This document shows positions 16,268-25,253 of a DNA stretch of 64,000 nucleotides, piece by piece. The position numbers and the translations under genes are program-made. Below the pieces are notes generated by a model. The model did not search any database. It worked only from the letters and a program-made list of their open reading frames with translations, and was not told where the DNA came from. The DNA comes from Shinella zoogloeoides (GTDB lineage: Bacteria; Pseudomonadota; Alphaproteobacteria; Rhizobiales; Rhizobiaceae): positions 3,175,501-3,239,500 of the forward strand of contig NZ_CP093528.1 of the NCBI RefSeq assembly GCF_022682305.1. The letters are read 5' to 3'. The first letter of the stretch is position 1. Each line of letters begins with the position of its first letter.

Positions 16268-16573
16268 TCAGGCGCCGAGGAAGTCCGCCATCTCGACATT
16301 GTAGAAGGTCTTGGTGCGCGGGCCGGCGAGGATCGGATCGATGCGGCGCACACATTCCTGATAGTGCGCGGTCTTGCGGTGGTCGTCGAGCGCTTCCGGC
16401 GATTTGAAGACTTCGTAGATGACGAAGCTGTGCTCGTCTTCCGGGTTGCGCAGCACGTCGAAGCGCAGGTTGCCCGGCTCCTGGCGCGTGCCCTCATAGT
16501 TGATGCGGAATGCCTCCAGGAACTCGGCGGCATGGCCCGGCTTGACGTTGATGCTGACCATCTGGATGAGCAT
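16268..16573 (-). CDS. lsrG: LsrG-type phospho-AI-2 isomerase (ABM-fold)
   Basis: Small cytoplasmic protein of 101 residues with the antibiotic-biosynthesis-monooxygenase fold. It shows MVSINVKPGHAAEFLEAF, then PGNLRFDVLRNPEDEHSFVIYEVF and HRKTAHYQE. These match LsrG, which isomerises phosphorylated autoinducer-2 during its breakdown. The fold alone is not specific, but the gene lies 38 bp downstream of an AI-2 kinase gene and in line with lsrR, which makes the assignment firm. It is the last gene of the leftward lsrRKG unit. Confidence 0.85.
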   Translation of the reverse strand: MLIQMVSINVKPGHAAEFLEAFRINYEGTRQEPGNLRFDVLRNPEDEHSFVIYEVFKSPEALDDHRKTAHYQECVRRIDPILAGPRTKTFYNVEMADFLGA

Positions 16574-16611
16574 GTCTTGATCCCTGCTGTGTTAAATCTC
16601 GGATGAAAAGG

Positions 16612-18174
16612 TTAGAGGCCTGGCGCTTTCCACATCGCCGTGGTGACGCCCTCGTCGACGAGCTGGCGCTGCAGCGCATAGGCGCGTGCCCAGCGCTCGC
16701 CGGCCTCGTCGTAGACGGCCTTGTGATCGACGTTCGGTTCGAAGCGCCTGTCCCAGCGTACCCAGCCCTCGGCCGCCTCGACGAAATCGCGGCGAAGGCC
16801 GATGCCGATGGCGGCGGCGGCCGCGCAGCCGAGCGCCGTCGCTTCCTTGACGACGGGCGTAACGACCGGAAGGCCCGTCGCGTCGGACAGGATCTGCGAC
16901 CAGTGGGCCGATTTCGACGCGCCGGCAGCGAAGACGATCTTGTCCGGTGTCTTGCCGGAGAGCTTGAAGATGGCCGAAAGGTTGCGGGCCGCGACGATGG
17001 CGGCGTTTTCCTGCAAGGCGCGGAAGATCGCGGCCTTGCCGGATTTCTCCGGGTCGATGGACAGGTTCAGGAGCGACGGGGCCGCGTGATACCAGTTGCC
17101 GTAATGCATGACATCGGAAAAGACCGGGATGATGCCGTAGGCGCCGACGGGCACGCCCGCCGCCTTCTCCTCCAGCAGCCGGTAGGCATCGCCGCCCGGT
17201 CCCGCGGCAAGCACCTCCTCCGCGCCAAAACTGTCGCGAAACCAGCGCATGACGATGCCGACGAAGAAGCTGATCGCCTCGGCTTGGTTGAGACCGGTCA
17301 CGACATGCGGGTTGATGCGCAGGTCCATCGACGGGTCGGAGACGGAGGGGCCGACATTGACCACCTGCTGCCAGAAGGTGCCGCCGAGCACCGCGCAGTC
17401 GCCCTCGTTGACGACGCCGATGGCCGCAGCCCCGCTCTGGCAGTCGCCGCCGCCCATGACGACGGGCGTGCCGGCGGCAAGGCCGGTCTCGTCCGCCGCC
17501 TTTTCCGTGACGCGGCCGATGACCGTGCCCGGCTCGACGCTTTCGGGGAAGATGTCGTCGCGCATGCCGGCCTTCGCCATGGCCTCCGGCAGCCAGTCGC
17601 GCTTGGTCAGACTATAGAGGCCGGTCGTGCCGGCATTGGAGGGGTCGCTGGCAATGACACCGGAAAGGCGCGCCAGCACCCAGTCGGAGAGCATGCTGAT
17701 CTTGTCGATGCGGGCATAGACGTCCGGCAGGTTGCGCTTCAGCCAGAGAAGGCGCGGCAGGGCGCCGAGCGCAAAGGTTTGACCGCTCTCGGCATAGAGG
17801 TCGCGTTCGAGGCCGGGGAACTCGCGTTTGAGGTCGCGCACCTCGCTGACGGCGCGGCTGTCGACATTGGCGCAGGCCCAGATCTCTCTCCCGGCACGGT
17901 CGTAGGCGACGATGGCCTCGCGCATGCTGGTGGCGCTGACTGCGCGGATGTCAGCAGCCGAAATGCCGGCCTCGGCCATCGCCTGCCGGATCGCCCGCGA
18001 GAGCAGCGACCAATTGCCTTCCACGTCGAAATCCATGGAGCCGGGAAAGCGCGGATCGGCCTTGTGCCACCATTCGTGCTGGGCGCTGGCGATCTGGTTG
18101 CCGTTCTCGTCGAAGATGACGGCGCGGCCGCTGCCGGTGCCGGCGTCGACGGCCAGCAGATAGGAAGTCGTCAT
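16612..18174 (-). CDS. lsrK: Autoinducer-2 kinase LsrK
   Basis: FGGY-family kinase of 520 residues, close to the 530 of Escherichia coli LsrK. It phosphorylates imported AI-2 (DPD), trapping it in the cytoplasm and creating the inducer of LsrR. The N-terminal phosphate-binding motif DAGTGSGRAVIFD is at residues 10-22, and ISAVSATSMREAIV-like and NVDSRAVSEV segments follow. The late FAAGASKSAHWSQILSDATG is the usual FGGY ATP-site region. The start at 18174 lies 4 bp after the lsrR stop. The family call rests on motifs plus the surrounding complete lsr gene set. Confidence 0.92.
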   Translation of the reverse strand: MTTSYLLAVDAGTGSGRAVIFDENGNQIASAQHEWWHKADPRFPGSMDFDVEGNWSLLSRAIRQAMAEAGISAADIRAVSATSMREAIVAYDRAGREIWACANVDSRAVSEVRDLKREFPGLERDLYAESGQTFALGALPRLLWLKRNLPDVYARIDKISMLSDWVLARLSGVIASDPSNAGTTGLYSLTKRDWLPEAMAKAGMRDDIFPESVEPGTVIGRVTEKAADETGLAAGTPVVMGGGDCQSGAAAIGVVNEGDCAVLGGTFWQQVVNVGPSVSDPSMDLRINPHVVTGLNQAEAISFFVGIVMRWFRDSFGAEEVLAAGPGGDAYRLLEEKAAGVPVGAYGIIPVFSDVMHYGNWYHAAPSLLNLSIDPEKSGKAAIFRALQENAAIVAARNLSAIFKLSGKTPDKIVFAAGASKSAHWSQILSDATGLPVVTPVVKEATALGCAAAAAIGIGLRRDFVEAAEGWVRWDRRFEPNVDHKAVYDEAGERWARAYALQRQLVDEGVTTAMWKAPGL

Positions 18175-18178
18175 GGGT

Positions 18179-19126
18179 TCAGTCCTTGATCTCGATGAGG
18201 CCGGCGGCCGTCGTCTCGTCGGTGATGAGGATGCCGACGAATTTTCCGCGCAGCGCCGCATGGATGGCCTGCACCTTCTGGATGCCGCCCGCCGCCGCCA
18301 CGACCTTTTCCGCGCGCGACAGCGCCGCGAGCTTCACGCCGATCACCCGGTCGTGCAGCGGCAGGTCGAGCGGTTCGCCACGCTCGTTGTAGAACTGGCA
18401 GAGGATATCGCCGACCGCGCCCTTGCGGCGCAGCGGCTCCACCTCGTCGGGGCTGACATAGCCGGAGCGCACGACAGTGGAGGCGGCGGAAAGCTCGCCG
18501 ATGCCGACGAGCTGGTAGGTAGCGTTGAGCGCCATGTCCAGGAGATTGGCGACGGCCGGCTCCGAGGAGAGGTTGCGCGCCACGTCCGGGTCGCGCACGA
18601 CGAGCGGCGCGGGCACCAGATGCACGCCGCTGCCCCAATTGGCCGTGCGCATGCCGTCGACATAGGTGCCCACGCCACCGGTAAGGCTGACGAGGCCGAT
18701 ATTGCGCTCGTTGGCGAGATGGCCGAGCCGCTGGATGGTGTTGGATACGGTAGCGCCCCAGCCGACCGCCAGAAGGTCGTCCGTCTGCAGCCGCTGCATG
18801 AGGAACTGCGCGGCCGCCTGCCCCAGCCGGTCGCTCGGGTCCTGATCGGGAAGCTGCGGCACAACATAGGCCTCGAGCAGCCCGTAGCGCTCCTTGATCT
18901 GCCGCTCCAAGGCAAGGCACCCCTGGTAGCGCGAATTGATGCGCACCTGGATGATGCCCGAGCGCCGGCCGCTTTCGAGCAGTCGCGAGACCTTGATGCG
19001 CGACATGTTGAGCTTTTCGCCGATCTCGTTCTGCGTCAGCCCGTCGTTGTAGTAATACCAGGCGATACGGGTGAGAATCTCCTCATCCGTATCGGCGTAG
19101 CTCCATTCCCCGTTGTCCGTCGCCAT
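18179..19126 (-). CDS. lsrR: SorC/DeoR-type repressor LsrR
   Basis: Transcriptional repressor of 315 residues (317 in E. coli). The N-terminal helix-turn-helix reads RIAWYYYNDGLTQNEIGEKL and then NMSRIKVSRLLESGR, about residues 20-52. A sugar-phosphate-binding SorC effector domain follows, with VGWGATVSNTIQRL and a TGGVGTYVDGMRT loop. Phospho-AI-2 binding would release it from the divergent promoter. The start at 19126 fits the family length; an open frame up to 19303 overlaps the promoter and looks non-coding. It is the first gene of the lsrRKG unit, divergent from lsrACDB. Confidence 0.92.
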   Translation of the reverse strand: MATDNGEWSYADTDEEILTRIAWYYYNDGLTQNEIGEKLNMSRIKVSRLLESGRRSGIIQVRINSRYQGCLALERQIKERYGLLEAYVVPQLPDQDPSDRLGQAAAQFLMQRLQTDDLLAVGWGATVSNTIQRLGHLANERNIGLVSLTGGVGTYVDGMRTANWGSGVHLVPAPLVVRDPDVARNLSSEPAVANLLDMALNATYQLVGIGELSAASTVVRSGYVSPDEVEPLRRKGAVGDILCQFYNERGEPLDLPLHDRVIGVKLAALSRAEKVVAAAGGIQKVQAIHAALRGKFVGILITDETTAAGLIEIKD

Positions 19127-19179
19127 GCAAGCGGCCCTTTCGGTCGATTTCTGATCATTTGAATAACAAAAAAACTTTT

Positions 19180-19195
19180 GATACGTCAACGTATC
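19180..19195. promoter_or_regulatory. Candidate LsrR operator
   Basis: Perfect palindromic arms GATACG and CGTATC around a 4-base centre, 53 bp upstream of the lsrR start in the 240-bp lsrR/lsrA divergent region. The rest of that region is AT-rich (TGATCA occurs twice) and should hold both promoters. The operator role is inferred from symmetry and position. Confidence 0.5.
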
Positions 19196-19366
19196 CGAGC
19201 GGCGAAAAATTCTTTGCGGCCGCAATTCCTTGACTTCCGCAGATAAATCATATTTTGCAGCGCAATATCGGCCTTGTGCGGCCGCATCGTGTGATTTGAG
19301 CATATTGACGGCCTCGCATCACTATGATCACATGATTGGCACGAATTACATATGAACAGGTGCAGA

Positions 19367-20869
19367 ATGACGGGTAGCCCGGCGGCCGGGAGGGTCGCGA
19401 AGCTGACGGACATCTGGAAGTCCTACGGCGCCGTTCCGGTGCTGAAGGGCGTTTCGCTCGCCTTGCAGGCCGGGGAAGTGCACGCGCTTCTCGGCGGCAA
19501 CGGCGCCGGCAAGTCGAGCCTCATGAAGATCATGTCCGGCGTCATCCCGGCCAATTCCGGCGCCATCGAGATCAATGGCCGGCCGCTCACCCACGCCTCC
19601 CCCGCCCATGCCCAAGAACTCGGCCTCTATCTGGTTCCGCAGGAAGCCCATATCCTGCCCAACCAGAGCGTCCTCGAGAACATCTGCCTCGGCCTTGCCG
19701 CCTCGCCCAAGGCCCTGCGCCCGCGCGTCGAGCAGCTCGTCGCCGAGCTCTCCGTCTCGCTCGACCTCGACGCCCAGGCCGCTGCCCTCGAAATCGCCGA
19801 GCGGCAGATCGTCGAGATCCTGCGCGGCCTCGTGCGCGATGCACGCGTGCTGATCCTCGACGAACCGACCTCGGCGCTTACCCCCTTCGAGACGAGCGCG
19901 CTCTTCCAGCGCGTGCGCAAATTGCAGGCGCAGGGCGTCGGCATCTTCTTCATCTCGCACAAGCTGCGCGAGATCCGCGAGATCTGCGGCACGATCAGCG
20001 TGCTGCGCGATGGCGTGATCGTGCTCTCCGGCCCGCTCGACAGCTACAGCGACGCCGAGATCATCGACGCGATGAGCCGCGTGCAGATCACGGAGACCTC
20101 GGGCAAGGATCGCTCCGGCCGCAAGGTCTCGCAGATCGGCCAGCCGCGCCTCAGCGTACGCGGCCTCAGCGGCGAGGGCTTCCGCAATATCAGCCTCGAC
20201 GTCAGGGCCGGCGAGATCCTCGGCCTTGCCGGCGTCGTCGGCGCGGGGCGCACGGAATTCGCCGAAACGCTCTTCGGCCTGCGCCCCCAGACGGCGGGCA
20301 GCGTCGTCTTCGACGGCGCGGAACTGAAGAAGCGCTCGCCGCGCATCTGCATCGATCGCGGCCTCGTCTACCTGCCGGAAGACCGCCAGCAGCATGGCCT
20401 CTTCCTCGAAGCCCCGCTCTTCTGGAACGTCTCTTCCTATCTCGTGCACCGCCTGCCCTTCTTCCTGCGCCCCGGCGCGGAACGGAAGGCGTTCGACGAC
20501 TTCCGCTCCAGCATGGGCATCAAGTGCACCGGTCCCGGCCAGGAGGCGCGCGGCCTTTCGGGCGGCAACCAGCAGAAGGTGCTGCTGGCCAAGTGCCTGT
20601 CCGCCCGGCCGAAGGTGCTGATCCTCGACGAGCCGACGCGCGGCGTCGACGTCGCGGCCCGCAACGACATCTATGACCTCATCCGCAAGCTCGCCGCCGA
20701 GGGCGTCGCCATCGTCCTCATCTCCTCGGACTTCGACGAGATCGAACAGCTCGCCGACCGCGTCGAGGTCATGGCCTTCGGCCAGTCCGGCGGGGAACTG
20801 ACGGACGACATCTCGGTGGACGCCATCGCGCGCCTTGCCTTCGGCGCCTCGGAGGCCCGCCATGCTTGA
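19367..20869 (+). CDS. lsrA: AI-2 ABC transporter ATP-binding protein LsrA
   Basis: Tandem ATPase of 500 residues with two ABC domains, as in sugar CUT2 systems. Domain 1 has Walker A GGNGAGKSS (about residues 45-53), Walker B LILDEPTSAL, and the degenerate signature LEIAERQIVEIL. Domain 2 has an atypical P-loop GVVGAGRTEFAE and a good signature LSGGNQQKVLLAK, followed by LILDEPTRGVD. This asymmetry is normal for the family. An ATG at 19352 is in frame, but the one at 19367 has AGGTG at ribosome-site distance and is preferred. The end overlaps lsrC by eight bases. Confidence 0.92.
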   Translation: MTGSPAAGRVAKLTDIWKSYGAVPVLKGVSLALQAGEVHALLGGNGAGKSSLMKIMSGVIPANSGAIEINGRPLTHASPAHAQELGLYLVPQEAHILPNQSVLENICLGLAASPKALRPRVEQLVAELSVSLDLDAQAAALEIAERQIVEILRGLVRDARVLILDEPTSALTPFETSALFQRVRKLQAQGVGIFFISHKLREIREICGTISVLRDGVIVLSGPLDSYSDAEIIDAMSRVQITETSGKDRSGRKVSQIGQPRLSVRGLSGEGFRNISLDVRAGEILGLAGVVGAGRTEFAETLFGLRPQTAGSVVFDGAELKKRSPRICIDRGLVYLPEDRQQHGLFLEAPLFWNVSSYLVHRLPFFLRPGAERKAFDDFRSSMGIKCTGPGQEARGLSGGNQQKVLLAKCLSARPKVLILDEPTRGVDVAARNDIYDLIRKLAAEGVAIVLISSDFDEIEQLADRVEVMAFGQSGGELTDDISVDAIARLAFGASEARHA

Positions 20870-21893
20870 CCTTTTCGCGCGCAACCGCGTCGCAACGCTC
20901 ATTGCCGTTCTCGTCGTCGCCTATGCCGCCATCGGCGCGGCAGCGCCGGGCTATCTCTCCGGCGCGACGGCCTCGGTCGTCCTCTCCAACAGCCTCGTGC
21001 TGATGCTGATCTCGCTCGGCACGATGATCGTCATCCTGACGCGCAATATCGACGTTTCCAGCGGCTCGGTGCTCGGCCTCAGCGCCGCCGTGCTCGGCCT
21101 CTCGCTCAATGCCGGCCTCGGCCTGCCGCTCGCCATCGTCTTCTGCCTCATGACGGGGGCCGCAGCCGGCGCCTTCAACGGGCTGATGGTCGCCTATCTC
21201 GGCATTCCCTCCATCGTCGCCACGCTCGGCACGCTCGGCCTCTATCGCGGCATCATGCTCGTTCTGACCGGTGGGCGCTGGATCGAGGACCTGCCGCAGA
21301 ACCTCAAGGCGCTGGCCGGCAATCTCGGCCCCGGCTTCTCCGCGCTCACCGTCGTCGTGCTCGTTCTCGTCGTGCTTGCATGGCTCGTGCTGCGCAAAAC
21401 GCGCTTCGGCCGCTATTTCTACGCCGTCGGCGACAACCGCGCCGCCGCGCACCATCTCGGCGTACCGGTGAAGCGCGTGCAGTTCACCGCCTTCGTCGCG
21501 ACCGGCATCTGTGCCGCGCTCGCCGGTCTCGTCTTCGCCGCGCAGATCGGCTTCATTCCCAACCAGGCCGGCAACGGCATCGAGCTGAAGGCCATCGCCG
21601 TCAACGTGCTCGGCGGGGTCAGCCTGCTCGGCGGCACCGGCTCGGTCGCGGGCGTCTTTTCCGCGGTCATCTTCATCACCTCCATCGACAGCGCGCTCGT
21701 CTTCCTGAAAATCCCCGCCTACTGGAACGACTTCATCGCCGGCGCGATCCTGCTCTCGGTGCTGCTGCTCGACGGGCGCATCCGCCAGATCATCGACCGC
21801 CGCATCCGCGCCCGCCGCTATGCCGTGCACGAGCGCGGCCCCGCCCAATCCGCTGAAACGACAACGGCGCGCACCGTGGAGGCCGGCCGATGA
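20862..21893 (+). CDS. lsrC: AI-2 ABC transporter permease LsrC
   Basis: Inner-membrane permease of 343 residues (342 in E. coli LsrC) with about ten hydrophobic segments. It carries the CUT2 permease features [15 protein letters not shown] and [19 protein letters not shown]. The start at 20862 lies inside the end of lsrA, so the genes are translationally coupled. It forms the channel together with LsrD. The long arginine-rich C-terminal tail after the last helix is somewhat extended. Confidence 0.92.
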
Positions 21894-22903
21894 AGAAGCT
21901 CATCTTCCGCTGGGAAACGGCGCTCCTTGCCATGCTCGTCGCCGAACTTGCCATCTTCGGCATCGTCAATCCGCGCTTCCTCAATGTCGCGAACCTGATC
22001 TACGGCACCTCGGATTTCGTGCAGATCGGCATCGTTGCCCTGCCGCTGACCCTCGTCATCATCGCCGGCGGCATCGACGTCTCCTTCGCCTCGGTGATCG
22101 GCCTTGCCGCCATCGTCTTCGGCGTCGCCACCTTCTACGGCGTACCGCTGCCGCTCTCGATCGCGCTGGCGCTCGTTTCCGGCGCGCTCTGCGGCCTTCT
22201 TAACGCCACCGTCATTCACCTGTCGAAGATCCAGCCGCTCGTCGTCACGCTCGGCAGCCTCTATCTCTTCCAGGGTACGGCGACAGTCGCCTCCGGCCTC
22301 GTCGGCGCAGGCGGCTACGAGGGCATCGGCAACTTCCCGGAAGCCTTCAACGCCTTCGGCTATGCGGAAGTCCTCGGTCTTCCGGCCCCGTTCGCGCTGT
22401 TCCTCGCGCTCGCCTTCGTGCTGGTCGTGCTCCTGCACTTCACCCGCTTCGGCCGCGCCGTGTTCCTTTCGGGCCAGTCGGAAAGCGCGGCGCGCTTCGC
22501 CGGCATCCCGGTCGCCCGCGTGCAGACTGTCACCTATGTCATCACGGGCGCCGCGGCCGCCATCGCCGGCCTCGTCATGTCGGCCTATTTCGGCTCGGCC
22601 CGTGTCGACCTCGGCTCGGCGACGCTGCTGCCCGCCGTCACGGCGGCAGTGCTCGGCGGCGCCTCCATCTATGGCGGCCAGGGATCCATCCTCGGCACCC
22701 TGATCGCCACCTTCGTCATCGGCTACCTGCAACAGGGTTTGCAGGCGGCCGGCGTACCCAGCCAGATTTCCAGCGCACTTTCGGGAGGGTTGCTGGTTAT
22801 CGCGGTCGCATTGCGCCACGGAAGCGCAATGCTGGCCGATTTCATCGCCGTCGCCCGGCAAAGAAGACAGAACCGGGTGGCAGTCACTTCAGGAGGAGAA
22901 TGA
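21890..22903 (+). CDS. lsrD: AI-2 ABC transporter permease LsrD
   Basis: Second permease of the AI-2 transporter, 337 residues. It shows [21 protein letters not shown] and [21 protein letters not shown], the same landmark positions as LsrC. The ATG overlaps the lsrC stop (ATGA) and its own stop overlaps the region just before lsrB, so lsrACDB is one tightly packed transcript. E. coli LsrD has 330 residues. Confidence 0.92.
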
Positions 22904-22905
22904 GA

Positions 22906-23937
22906 ATGATCAAGAACATCATGAAATCCGGCGCCGTCGCCGCGGCGCTTCTCGCCGGCACCATGCTCGCCTCGGGCACGGCCCATGCCGAAAATCAGAT
23001 CGCCTTCATCCCCAAGCTGGTGGGCGTCGGCTTCTTCACGTCCGGCGGTGCCGGCGCGACGAAGGCCGGCGAAGAGCTCGGCGCGAAGGTAACCTATGAC
23101 GGCCCGACGGAGCCCAGCGTCTCCGCCCAGGTGCAGTTCATCAACAACTTCGTCAACCAGGGCTACAACGCCCTCATCGTCTCCTCCGTCTCGCCGGACG
23201 GTCTGTGCCCGGCGCTCAAGCGCGCCATGGAGCGCGGCGTGCTCGTCATGACCTGGGATAGCGATGTCAACCCCGATTGCCGCAGCTACTACATCAACCA
23301 GGGCACGCCCGAGCAGCTCGGCGGCCTGCTGGTCGACATGGCGGCGGAAGGCGTGACGAAGGAAAAGGCCAAGGTCGCCTTCTTCTATTCCAGCCCCACC
23401 GTGACCGACCAGAACGCCTGGGCGGAAGCGGCCAAGGCGAAGATCGCCAAGGAGCATCCGGGCTGGGAGATCGTCACCACCCAGTACGGCTACAACGATG
23501 CGCAGAAGTCGTTGCAGACGGCTGAAAGCATCCTCCAGACCTATCCGGACCTCGACGCGATCATCGCGCCCGACGCCAACGCCCTGCCGGCCGCAGCGCA
23601 GGCAGCGGAAAACCTGAAGCGCGCCGAGGGCGTCACCATCGTCGGCTTCTCCACGCCGAACGTCATGCGCCCCTATATCGAACGCGGCACGATCCAGCGC
23701 TTCGGCCTGTGGGACGTCACGCAGCAGGGCAAGATCTCGGTCTACGTCGCCGATCACGTCCTGAAGAACGGCCCGATGAAGGTCGGCGACAAGCTGGAAA
23801 TCCCCGGCGTCGGCACCGTCGAGGTCTCGGCCAACAAGGTACAGGGCTACGACTACGAAGCCGATGGCAACGGCATCATCCTGCTGCCGGAGCGCACCGT
23901 CTTCACCAAGGACAACATCGCCAACTTCGACTTCTGA
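22906..23937 (+). CDS. lsrB: AI-2-binding periplasmic protein LsrB
   Basis: Periplasmic receptor of 343 residues with a signal peptide ending near TAHAE. The ATG at 22906 is preferred over one at 22900 because AGGAGG is nine bases away. The six residues known to contact the R-THMF form of AI-2 in Salmonella LsrB (K35, D116, D166, Q167, P220 and A222, from memory of published structures) all have counterparts at a constant offset of two: K37, D118, D168, Q169, P222 and A224. They sit in FIPKLVG, TWDSD, VTDQNAW and IIAPDANAL. This strongly supports true AI-2 binding over a ribose-like sugar. Confidence 0.94.
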
Positions 23938-23948
23938 TAACGCACGAA

Positions 23949-23974
23949 CGGCGGGCGGCTCCGGCTGCCCGCCG
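23949..23974 (+). terminator. Hairpin after lsrB
   Basis: Perfect 8-bp GC-rich stem CGGCGGGC / GCCCGCCG, with further pairing possible in the loop, followed by CTTTCAC. It lies in the 65-bp gap between lsrB and the aldolase gene. It may stabilise the lsrB end of the transcript or partly terminate it; it has no strong U-tract. Confidence 0.5.
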
Positions 23975-24002
23975 CTTTCACTTCAAGAACAGGACAATCC
24001 GC

Positions 24003-25253
24003 ATGAAAAGCCGCTGGAACGACGAGGACGCAGCCCGTTACGTGGAGGCCGCGCGCGCGGCCGGACAGAGCGAAGCCCTCGGCCTTCGCATCTATACCTC
24101 CCGCATCATCGGCGGCGACCCGGACCTCGTCCTGCACGGCGGCGGCAACACCTCCGTCAAGGTGACGGCGGACGGCGAAGCGCTCATGCACATCAAGGGT
24201 AGCGGCTGGGACCTCGACACGATCGAGGCGCCGGGCCTGCCGGCCGTGCGCCTTGCCCCGCTGCTCGAGGCCCGCGACGGGCCGAAACTTTCCGACCCGG
24301 ACATGGTCGCCCTGCTGCGCGCCAGCCTCATCGAGGCGGATGCGCCGAATCCGTCGGTCGAAGCGCTGCTACACGCCTTCCTGCCCTTCGCCTTCGTCGA
24401 CCATACCCACGCAACCGCTATCCTGGCGCTCGCCGACCAGCCCGACATGCGCGACACGATCAAGCGCATCTACGGCGACCGCCTTGCCTATGTGCCCTAT
24501 GTTATGCCCGGCTTCGACCTTTCCATCGTCGCCGACCGCATCTACCGCGACCATCCCGGCTGCGAGGGCCTCTGGCTGGAGAACCACGGCCTCTTCACCT
24601 TCGCCAACGACGCCCGCGCCTCCTATGAGCTGATGATCGAGTTCGTCACCATGGCGGAAGACGAGCTTGCGCGCGCCGGCGTCGCACTCACCGGCCCGCA
24701 GCAAAGCGACGGTGTGGAGGACGTGGCGCTCCGTGCTCGGCTGGAAACGGCCCTTGCCCGCGACGGCTCCCCCTTCGCCAAAGGCGTCTTCCTCGACTAC
24801 CGCTCCACCGCCGCAATCCGCGAGCATGCCGCCAAAAGCAATGTCGAGGCCATCAGCCTGCGCGGCACGGTGACGCCGGACCACGTCATCCGCATCAAAC
24901 CCTGGCCGATGGTTGTCGGCCCGGAGGCGGACGGCGACGCCATTGCCGCGGCCCTCGCCGCCTATGCCGACCGCTACAAGGCCTACTTCACGCGAAATGC
25001 CGCGCGCACCAACGAGCCGAAGCGCATGCTGGACGTCTATCCGCGCGTCGTTCTGGTCCTCGGCAAGGGCGTCTACGCCATTGGGGCGACCGCGAAGGCG
25101 GCGAAGATCGGCGGCGACCTCTGCGAACAGGCGACACGGGCCATCAACGCCGCCGAAGCCTACGGCCGCTTCACGCCCATCGGCGAGGCCGATCTCTTCG
25201 ACATGGAATACTGGTCGCTGGAACAGGCCAAACTGGCCGTCGGCGCTTCGTAG
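24003..25253 (+). CDS. Class II aldolase/adducin-domain protein in the lsr operon
   Basis: Zinc-type aldolase-fold protein of 416 residues. The metal and substrate motifs are LHGGGNTSVKV (about residues 39-50), VDHTHATAIL with the His-x-His pair, and LENHGLFTFA. The length and segments match the N-terminal aldolase part of the bifunctional rhamnulose-1-phosphate aldolase/dehydrogenase (about 700 residues), without the dehydrogenase half. In enteric bacteria the position after lsrB is held by LsrF, a class I-type thiolase acting on phospho-AI-2; no LsrF is present here. It could therefore cleave the carbon skeleton made by LsrG, or serve an unrelated sugar-phosphate step. The fold is clear but the substrate is inferred. 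Confidence 0.85.
   Translation: MKSRWNDEDAARYVEAARAAGQSEALGLRIYTSRIIGGDPDLVLHGGGNTSVKVTADGEALMHIKGSGWDLDTIEAPGLPAVRLAPLLEARDGPKLSDPDMVALLRASLIEADAPNPSVEALLHAFLPFAFVDHTHATAILALADQPDMRDTIKRIYGDRLAYVPYVMPGFDLSIVADRIYRDHPGCEGLWLENHGLFTFANDARASYELMIEFVTMAEDELARAGVALTGPQQSDGVEDVALRARLETALARDGSPFAKGVFLDYRSTAAIREHAAKSNVEAISLRGTVTPDHVIRIKPWPMVVGPEADGDAIAAALAAYADRYKAYFTRNAARTNEPKRMLDVYPRVVLVLGKGVYAIGATAKAAKIGGDLCEQATRAINAAEAYGRFTPIGEADLFDMEYWSLEQAKLAVGAS

Follow-up and report, generated by a model that had tools for sequence, protein, structure and literature searches.

A class II aldolase gene at the position of lsrF in the lsr locus of Shinella zoogloeoides and other alphaproteobacteria

Introduction

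The closest described counterparts of the locus reported here are the lsr systems for uptake and breakdown of autoinducer-2 (AI-2). In enteric bacteria LsrG converts phosphorylated 4,5-dihydroxy-2,3-pentanedione (P-DPD) to P-TPO, and LsrF then moves an acetyl group to coenzyme A (CoA), releasing dihydroxyacetone phosphate (DHAP) (PMC8016206). The lsr regions of Sinorhizobium meliloti and Rhodobacter sphaeroides were described in 2008 as lsrBDCARKG in bacteria without luxS, and S. meliloti is reported to lack that gene (PMC2561040). We analyzed the lsr locus in a 64,000-nucleotide stretch of Shinella zoogloeoides (assembly GCF_022682305.1, contig NZ_CP093528.1, positions 3,175,501 to 3,239,500), called the window below, from whose start all coordinates of the locus are counted. 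The last gene of its lsr operon codes for a class II aldolase and not for LsrF.

S. meliloti reportedly responds to AI-2 supplied by others, to go by the title of the 2008 study by Pereira. How bacteria that respond to AI-2 and do not produce it finish AI-2 breakdown without LsrF is a question that the partial literature covered here does not address, and the same is true for the role of the aldolase in S. meliloti. In this literature we could find no mention of LsrF being replaced by a class II aldolase, but the key AI-2 papers (Pereira 2008 and both Marques papers) fall outside its coverage and may already mention the gene, so this negative is no proof of absence. Public records already label the gene as a class II aldolase. 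The system itself is known, and what is new is its terminal enzyme and the origin of that enzyme.

Results

Genes in the window were named from Pfam and NCBIfam profile scores, each judged against the model's own cut-off. The lsrG, lsrK and lsrR genes (minus strand, 16268-19126) are divergent from lsrA, lsrC, lsrD, lsrB and the aldolase gene (plus strand, 19352-25253). A preliminary description of the window had recognized a complete lsrRKG and lsrACDB locus that ends in a 416-residue class II aldolase, and all eight genes were indeed found. The aldolase gene (24003..25253, plus strand, 416 aa) matches PF00596 with 77 bits (cut-off 22.2) as its sole Pfam match, and the LsrF model is absent from the NCBIfam matches of the protein at E <= 0.001. 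There is no LsrF thiolase within the lsr operon of the window, and the aldolase occupies that place.

We next explored how widely this arrangement occurs by scanning with an LsrK alignment, one genome per species, and taking the best 80 of at least 449 stretches encoding a relative, so that more distant lsr loci are unsampled. These 80 loci (L numbers below) were classed by tblastn matches no farther than ~10 kb from lsrK. All of lsrABCD is present in 70 of them, 42 alphaproteobacterial and 28 gammaproteobacterial. A full aldolase gene adjoining lsrB with no LsrF was found in 34 of the 42 alphaproteobacterial loci, while three others have a partial aldolase (L040 and L047 are cut by a contig end and L035 has a truncated gene), four have LsrF without the aldolase (one Pseudovibrio and three Cohaesibacter), and one, L016 from Nitratireductor indicus, has neither. 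LsrG is present in all 42. The gammaproteobacterial loci have LsrF and no aldolase in every case (28/28), and none of the 80 loci contains both genes. Outside the 70-locus count are ten loci with incomplete lsrABCD, specifically three alphaproteobacterial ones with neither gene, one from gammaproteobacteria that has LsrF, and six from Serratia that have only lsrK and lsrG. The suspicion, raised from the window alone, that the aldolase replaces LsrF is thus supported by the surveyed alphaproteobacterial loci, and its place in the lsr locus is well supported by these gene-content comparisons.

Plasmid records from S. meliloti 1021 (pSymB), Thalassospira marina, Alloyangia pacifica, Tritonibacter mobilis and Ensifer canadensis show the same layout, in which lsrGKR is divergent from lsrACDB and the aldolase gene, and none of these five stretches has an LsrF match. 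The pSymB stretch additionally has a second partial copy of the C-terminal end of the aldolase, lying ~9 kb downstream of lsr (L009:22105-22320; 76% identity over aldolase residues 342-413). A divergent third layout is seen in L135 and L136, where lsrRK is divergent from lsrG-ACDB and LsrF is encoded elsewhere in both genomes.

A sample of 297 Rhizobiaceae genomes (G numbers) gave 18 that passed the LsrK cut-off and 20 with matches at E <= 1e-140; five of the 20 share coordinates with genomes of the LsrK scan, so the sample is not independent. Among 385 alphaproteobacterial genomes none but the window's own contained LsrK at the set limit, and in both searches LsrK matched 0 of 14 control genomes. 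An aldolase 72-100% identical lies 7.1-7.4 kb from lsrK in 11 of the 20. Two genomes, G567 and G686 (L139:6198-15560 and L140:310-9797), have LsrK at 55-56% identity, LsrR, and an lsrG (55-59%) directly before a 54% identical aldolase gene; their ABC transporter is a different one, and LsrB has no match. This indicates that isomerase and aldolase remain paired even where LsrB is missing, and AI-2 or a relative of AI-2 is possibly imported by another route in these strains. G513 and G569 have an LsrK-like kinase below the cut-off and a 52-53% identical aldolase with no lsrG match. No such aldolase was found in five of the 20: G503 (L143), where the other lsr genes are intact and lsrB ends up 1.7 kb from a contig end; G603, which by its coordinates is the genome of L035; G462, where a 7.9-kb contig ends in lsrK and lsrR; and G579 and G641, in whose divergent lsr loci both the aldolase gene and lsrF are missing. 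Only G579 and G641 have an LsrF above the cut-off among the 20, located away from lsr and beside DhaK/DhaL-like genes (named by eye).

The aldolase appears to be a two-part protein. Residues ~1-228 form a catalytic class II aldolase domain with E120, H134, H136 and H195, and residues ~237-416 (window 24711-25253) have a predicted fold like that of a second class II aldolase domain. The PF00596 match, the three metal His and the catalytic Glu are all present and the fold match agrees, and 40 of 40 lsr aldolases agree in these four catalytic letters and in the GGGNTS and KGSG loops. By motif we take E120, H134, H136 and H195 to correspond to E73, H92, H94 and H155 of FucA. There is no C-terminal short-chain dehydrogenase/reductase (SDR) domain, as the protein ends at residue 416 and the lsr aldolases extend only 0-4 residues beyond the aldolase match.

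The preliminary description had likened the protein to the aldolase half of the bifunctional rhamnulose-1-phosphate enzyme RhaD, a likeness that stands at the superfamily level and does not extend to closer kinship. The RhaD model TIGR02632 gives it 233 bits against a cut-off of 568, and its nearest SDR-fused relatives lie beside MtnK and MtnA. Only two PF00596 proteins occur in the whole genome, this aldolase and a 729-aa RhaD (1154 bits, cut-off 568) in a separate rhamnose locus, which are 30% identical. RhaD has Asp at the position of E120 and Trp at position 166 in five of five sequences. Identity with RhaD or FucA was rejected on the grounds of this separate RhaD, the Asp versus Glu at 120, and a deep tree split. 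Because the genome has its own bifunctional RhaD in a rhamnose locus, action on rhamnulose or fuculose phosphates only, the outcome that would have spoken against a role in AI-2 breakdown, appears unlikely as far as rhamnulose is concerned.

In a tree of 48 of 60 aldolase sequences (12 near-copies dropped) the lsr aldolases group together (85/64) and join a standalone relative encoded next to an LsrK-like kinase (97/91); two SDR-fused groups are nearby and RhaD is far off (100/100). The order of the SDR-fused groups is unsure, as the program flags long branches at these joins. A second tree of 34 sequences that includes the aldolases of G567, G686, G513 and G569 agrees, with the LsrK-linked group at 90/96 and the lsr group at 89/93. 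In both trees, all SDR-less aldolases come from clusters that also encode an LsrK-family kinase, indicating that the kinase-aldolase pairing may predate the link to lsrB. In L098:6340-11294, L141:7251-12187 and L142:8142-13229 an LsrK-like kinase, an SDR-less aldolase, a PGDH-like dehydrogenase and a SorC-type regulator form one cluster. Eight of the nine members of one SDR-fused group are encoded beside MtnK and MtnA, which points to cleavage of the 5-deoxyribulose-1-phosphate type. The neighbors of the window aldolase are lsr genes, and the MtnK/MtnA neighbors belong to this other tree group. Aldolase-SDR fusions by MtnK and MtnA were observed in L097, L099 and L103-L108; L099, where both enzymes scored above their cut-offs when the stretch was scanned, also contains a SorC-type regulator and ABC genes. 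These clusters are apparently a variant of the DHAP shunt whose two-part aldolase carries a fused reductase.

Regarding the origin of the swap, an unrooted tree of 46 of 72 LsrB sequences (near-copies dropped; the bootstrap had not fully settled) has every aldolase locus on the same side (95/91). L016 and L035 fall within that side as losses, and L136 is on a long branch of unsure placement. This argues for one event with losses and not for many independent ones, and fits a swap that would have happened once between the two sampled kinds of lsr locus. The aldolase clade spans Rhizobiaceae, Kaistia, Arsenicitalea, Thalassospira and roseobacters.

LsrB (22900..23937, plus strand; model 636 bits, cut-off 384) keeps at K39, D120, D170, Q171, P224 and A226 the six positions that we take to be the AI-2 contacts of E. 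coli LsrB (K35, D116, D166, Q167, P220 and A222); the alignment supports the constant offset noted earlier, here four residues, and these presumed contacts are identical in 72 of 72 aligned LsrB sequences, the window's included. The closest solved chain is that of S. meliloti LsrB (3ejw, 691 bits). The lsrG gene (16268..16573, minus strand, 101 aa, PF03992; best model PRK10486, 106 bits, cut-off 135) codes for a P-DPD isomerase homolog of an aldolase-associated subtype. Specifically, the LsrG subtype tracks the terminal enzyme in the 80 loci, as aldolase loci never have the enteric type and LsrF loci never have the other. Position 26 is His in 40 of 40 enteric-type sequences. The 43 others, some of them from loci that lack the aldolase such as L136, have Tyr in 36 cases and Cys in 7; all seven Cys-26 sequences come from a roseobacter-like group, and the window LsrG has Tyr.

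As for the other genes, lsrK (AI-2 kinase, 520 aa, 16612..18174, minus strand, start picked from the translation) scores 864 bits with PRK10939 (cut-off 528), and lsrA (transporter ATPase, 505 aa, 19352..20869, plus strand) scores 729 bits with PRK15439 (cut-off 586), so that LsrB, LsrK and LsrA are above their cut-offs. LsrC, LsrD, LsrR and LsrG are below theirs with the correct model on top. These include the permease genes lsrC (20859..21893, plus strand; PRK15432, 387 bits, one bit short of the cut-off of 388) and lsrD (21890..22903, plus strand; PRK15038, 385 bits, cut-off 500), and lsrR (SorC-type regulator, 18179..19126, minus strand, PF04198; PRK15418, 316 bits, cut-off 486), for which 19126 is the likely start picked from the translation of an open reading frame that is open to 19303.

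Profile searches were extended to the whole genome (5.14 Mb in seven contigs, 99.98% complete). LuxS gave no match in it, with five of 14 control genomes positive, so that the absence of luxS noted within the window is borne out genome-wide. A luxS-less bacterium with an lsr locus is not new in kind, since both the S. meliloti locus and the absence of luxS from that species have been published (PMC2561040, PMC2443158). No LsrF above the cut-off (297) exists genome-wide, and a homolog elsewhere, which the preliminary description had named as the finding that would overturn its proposal, was thus not found. The single LsrF-like match, on another contig, was rejected as a candidate, as it reaches only 105 bits (five of 14 controls also match, none above the cut-off) and fits models for 2-amino-3,7-dideoxy-D-threo-hept-6-ulosonate (ADH) synthase and archaeal fructose-bisphosphate (FBP) aldolase better. 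Its operon codes for a binding protein, an ABC protein, a permease, a SorC regulator, an aldo-keto reductase, a GlpD-like protein, the LsrF-like protein and an FGGY kinase, with no LsrG match and a binding protein just 25% like LsrB. This layout resembles a 'putative Lsr system in Rhizobiales' (PMC3420918).

A search for LsrF homologs in 44 of the 45 alphaproteobacterial genomes found homologs of at least 56% identity in the four LsrF-type genomes and in four of the 40 others (G001, G002, G006 and G034, 68-71%); the remaining genomes have homologs of 27-40% or none, so that no homolog above 40% is present in 36 of the 40. The absence of lsrF alongside the aldolase holds in the window's genome, and it does not hold in these four other aldolase genomes. 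When scanned, the stretches L093 (G006) and L095 (G034) scored 485 and 502 bits with the LsrF model, above the cut-off. The LsrF homolog of G001, G002 and G006 is followed by an aldolase-SDR fusion amid ABC transporter and FGGY-kinase genes, and that of G034 closes a GlpD-like/FGGY operon. This indicates that LsrF is not an lsr-only enzyme. We also observed that the LsrF and aldolase families, mutually exclusive in lsr loci, stand together in Shinella, where a 69% identical LsrF homolog directly precedes an aldolase-SDR fusion without lsrB or lsrG (L092:9236-12143, L093:9204-12107 and L094:7357-10418).

Discussion

The gene content, the replacement pattern, the intact metal and catalytic positions, and the kinship with sugar-phosphate aldolases beside MtnK/MtnA lead us to think it somewhat probable that a metal-dependent class II aldolase does the job of LsrF and releases DHAP from the product of LsrG. 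Its place in the locus is read from genomes, and its chemistry in AI-2 breakdown is inferred. In the proposed pathway LsrACDB would import AI-2, LsrK would phosphorylate it, and LsrG would isomerize P-DPD to 3-hydroxy-2,4-pentanedione-5-phosphate, the hydrate of which is P-TPO. By our own chemical reasoning, dehydrated P-TPO numbered from its phosphate end would be 5-deoxy-pento-2,4-diulose-1-phosphate, the C4-keto analog of 5-deoxyribulose-1-phosphate. The latter sugar phosphate is the substrate of DHAP-shunt aldolases such as DrdA, a class II enzyme that cleaves it to DHAP and acetaldehyde by a mechanism involving a metal-bound enediol and a conserved Glu (PMC6079011). An enzyme derived from this group would already be able to bind the DHAP half. 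The aldolase would bind this half via its metal and cut the same C-C bond as LsrF, with DHAP leaving as a metal-stabilized enediolate. The acetyl half would most likely become acetate by hydrolytic (retro-Claisen) cleavage or, less likely, acetaldehyde after a prior reduction. Removal of the inducer would then let LsrR shut the operon.

Several observations weigh against this proposal. A ketone at C4 makes an ordinary retro-aldol reaction impossible, so that either a retro-Claisen activity (with water or a thiol) or a reductase would be needed; no recurring reductase family is present in the flanks of the 34 aldolase loci, which favors hydrolysis to acetate. The Tyr or Cys in place of His at LsrG position 26 suggests that the LsrG product might differ, and no assay of any enzyme of this aldolase clade was found in the literature covered. 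There are also lsr loci without an intact aldolase gene: L016 has neither gene in its locus, the operons of L135 and L136 hold neither, and the aldolase of L035 is truncated with no LsrF above the cut-off in its genome. The G503 genome (L143) keeps the other lsr genes with no aldolase found anywhere in it and no LsrF above the cut-off. Finally, L098, L141 and L142 have an SDR-less aldolase by an LsrK-like kinase with no lsrG match or close LsrB in their 19-kb stretches.

These last clusters indicate that kinase and aldolase can function there as a pair with no LsrG, and so would be compatible with an aldolase that cleaves P-DPD or a side form of it (hydrate, epimer or reduced) in parallel to LsrG, giving glycolaldehyde-phosphate or a lactate-type pair and not DHAP. 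We regard this as unlikely given that every one of the 42 complete alphaproteobacterial loci has an LsrG, the type of which switches together with the aldolase, that lsrG and the aldolase gene are direct neighbors in L139 and L140 despite the lack of LsrB, and that a neighboring SDR-fused group sits with enzymes making ketose-1-phosphates. Only marginally less unlikely is the import of a second sugar-like ligand, for which LsrK and the aldolase would be the ketose kinase and ketose-1-phosphate aldolase, with AI-2 itself handled by LsrK and LsrG alone. An FGGY kinase with a class II aldolase is a common pairing typical of fucose and rhamnose catabolism, and the same three clusters have such a pair without lsrG or a close LsrB. 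However, the six LsrB contacts are unchanged in all 72 sequences, and the crystal of S. meliloti LsrB contains the ligand R-THMF (PMC8016206).

Completion of P-DPD breakdown by an LsrF homolog elsewhere, with only a minor role for the aldolase, is distinctly improbable. Such homologs do occur outside lsr in the four aldolase genomes described above, with both of the scanned ones over the cut-off, and in G579 and G641, yet none above the cut-off exists in the window's genome, 36 of 40 searched non-LsrF-type genomes have no homolog over 40% identity, and where present the homologs are placed in other kinase/ABC operons. That the protein is a rhamnulose- or fuculose-1-phosphate aldolase lying in the operon by chance we consider very improbable; its top NCBIfam models are those of the bifunctional aldolase/SDR group, but the genome's separate RhaD, the Asp at position 120 of all five RhaD sequences, the 100/100 tree split, and an lsr-operon place that is kept across families all speak against it.

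Returning to DHAP release from the LsrG product, a more specific version that we offer only tentatively is that 5-deoxypentulose-1-phosphate aldolases gave rise to this enzyme as a metal-dependent retro-Claisen hydrolase or acetyl transferase, which yields DHAP and acetate in a reaction not known to us from the class II aldolase superfamily. If so, AI-2 degradation would end by two non-homologous enzymes in enterics and alphaproteobacteria, and a non-aldehyde product would explain the missing SDR domain. The replacement points to a single gene, with a single substrate and a single product to expect. If true, it represents a non-homologous replacement within a signal-degrading pathway, and genome surveys based on lsrF undercount complete AI-2 consumers.

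Among known enzymes, DHAP-shunt and 5-deoxyribose aldolases such as DrdA share the class II fold and catalytic positions with the window aldolase and probably also the release of DHAP from a phosphorylated five-carbon sugar. DrdA is a single-domain protein (solved chains of 203-207 residues) encoded in a kinase-isomerase-aldolase cluster and acts on a substrate with an alcohol at C4, whereas the window aldolase is a longer two-part protein beside LsrK with a proposed substrate that has a C4 ketone. Ald2 is presumably a further aldolase of DHAP-shunt/5-deoxyribose disposal. Bifunctional RhaD shares the two-part aldolase region, aligned along its whole length at 30% identity, with the window aldolase differing by its lack of the SDR part, its Glu and not Asp at 120, and its operon. 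The enteric lsr systems of E. coli and Salmonella share LsrR, LsrK, LsrACDB, LsrG and the divergent layout with the window, but they have LsrF, a CoA-dependent thiolase of DhnA/DeoC-type class I fold, where the window has a class II aldolase. The LsrG subtype also differs, as does the position of lsrG, which is at the end of lsrACDBFG in enterics and behind lsrK in the window. Enteric lsrF mutants reportedly show increased expression of lsr after AI-2. Finally, the S. meliloti 1021 pSymB locus has no LsrF match in 25 kb and shows no difference in kind from the window. All eight genes of the window locus recur there in unchanged order (SMb21016-21022; PMC2443158), with protein identities of 93% for LsrG, 94% for LsrK, 95% for LsrR, 91% for LsrA, 91% for LsrC, 93% for LsrD, 96% for LsrB and 83% for the aldolase.

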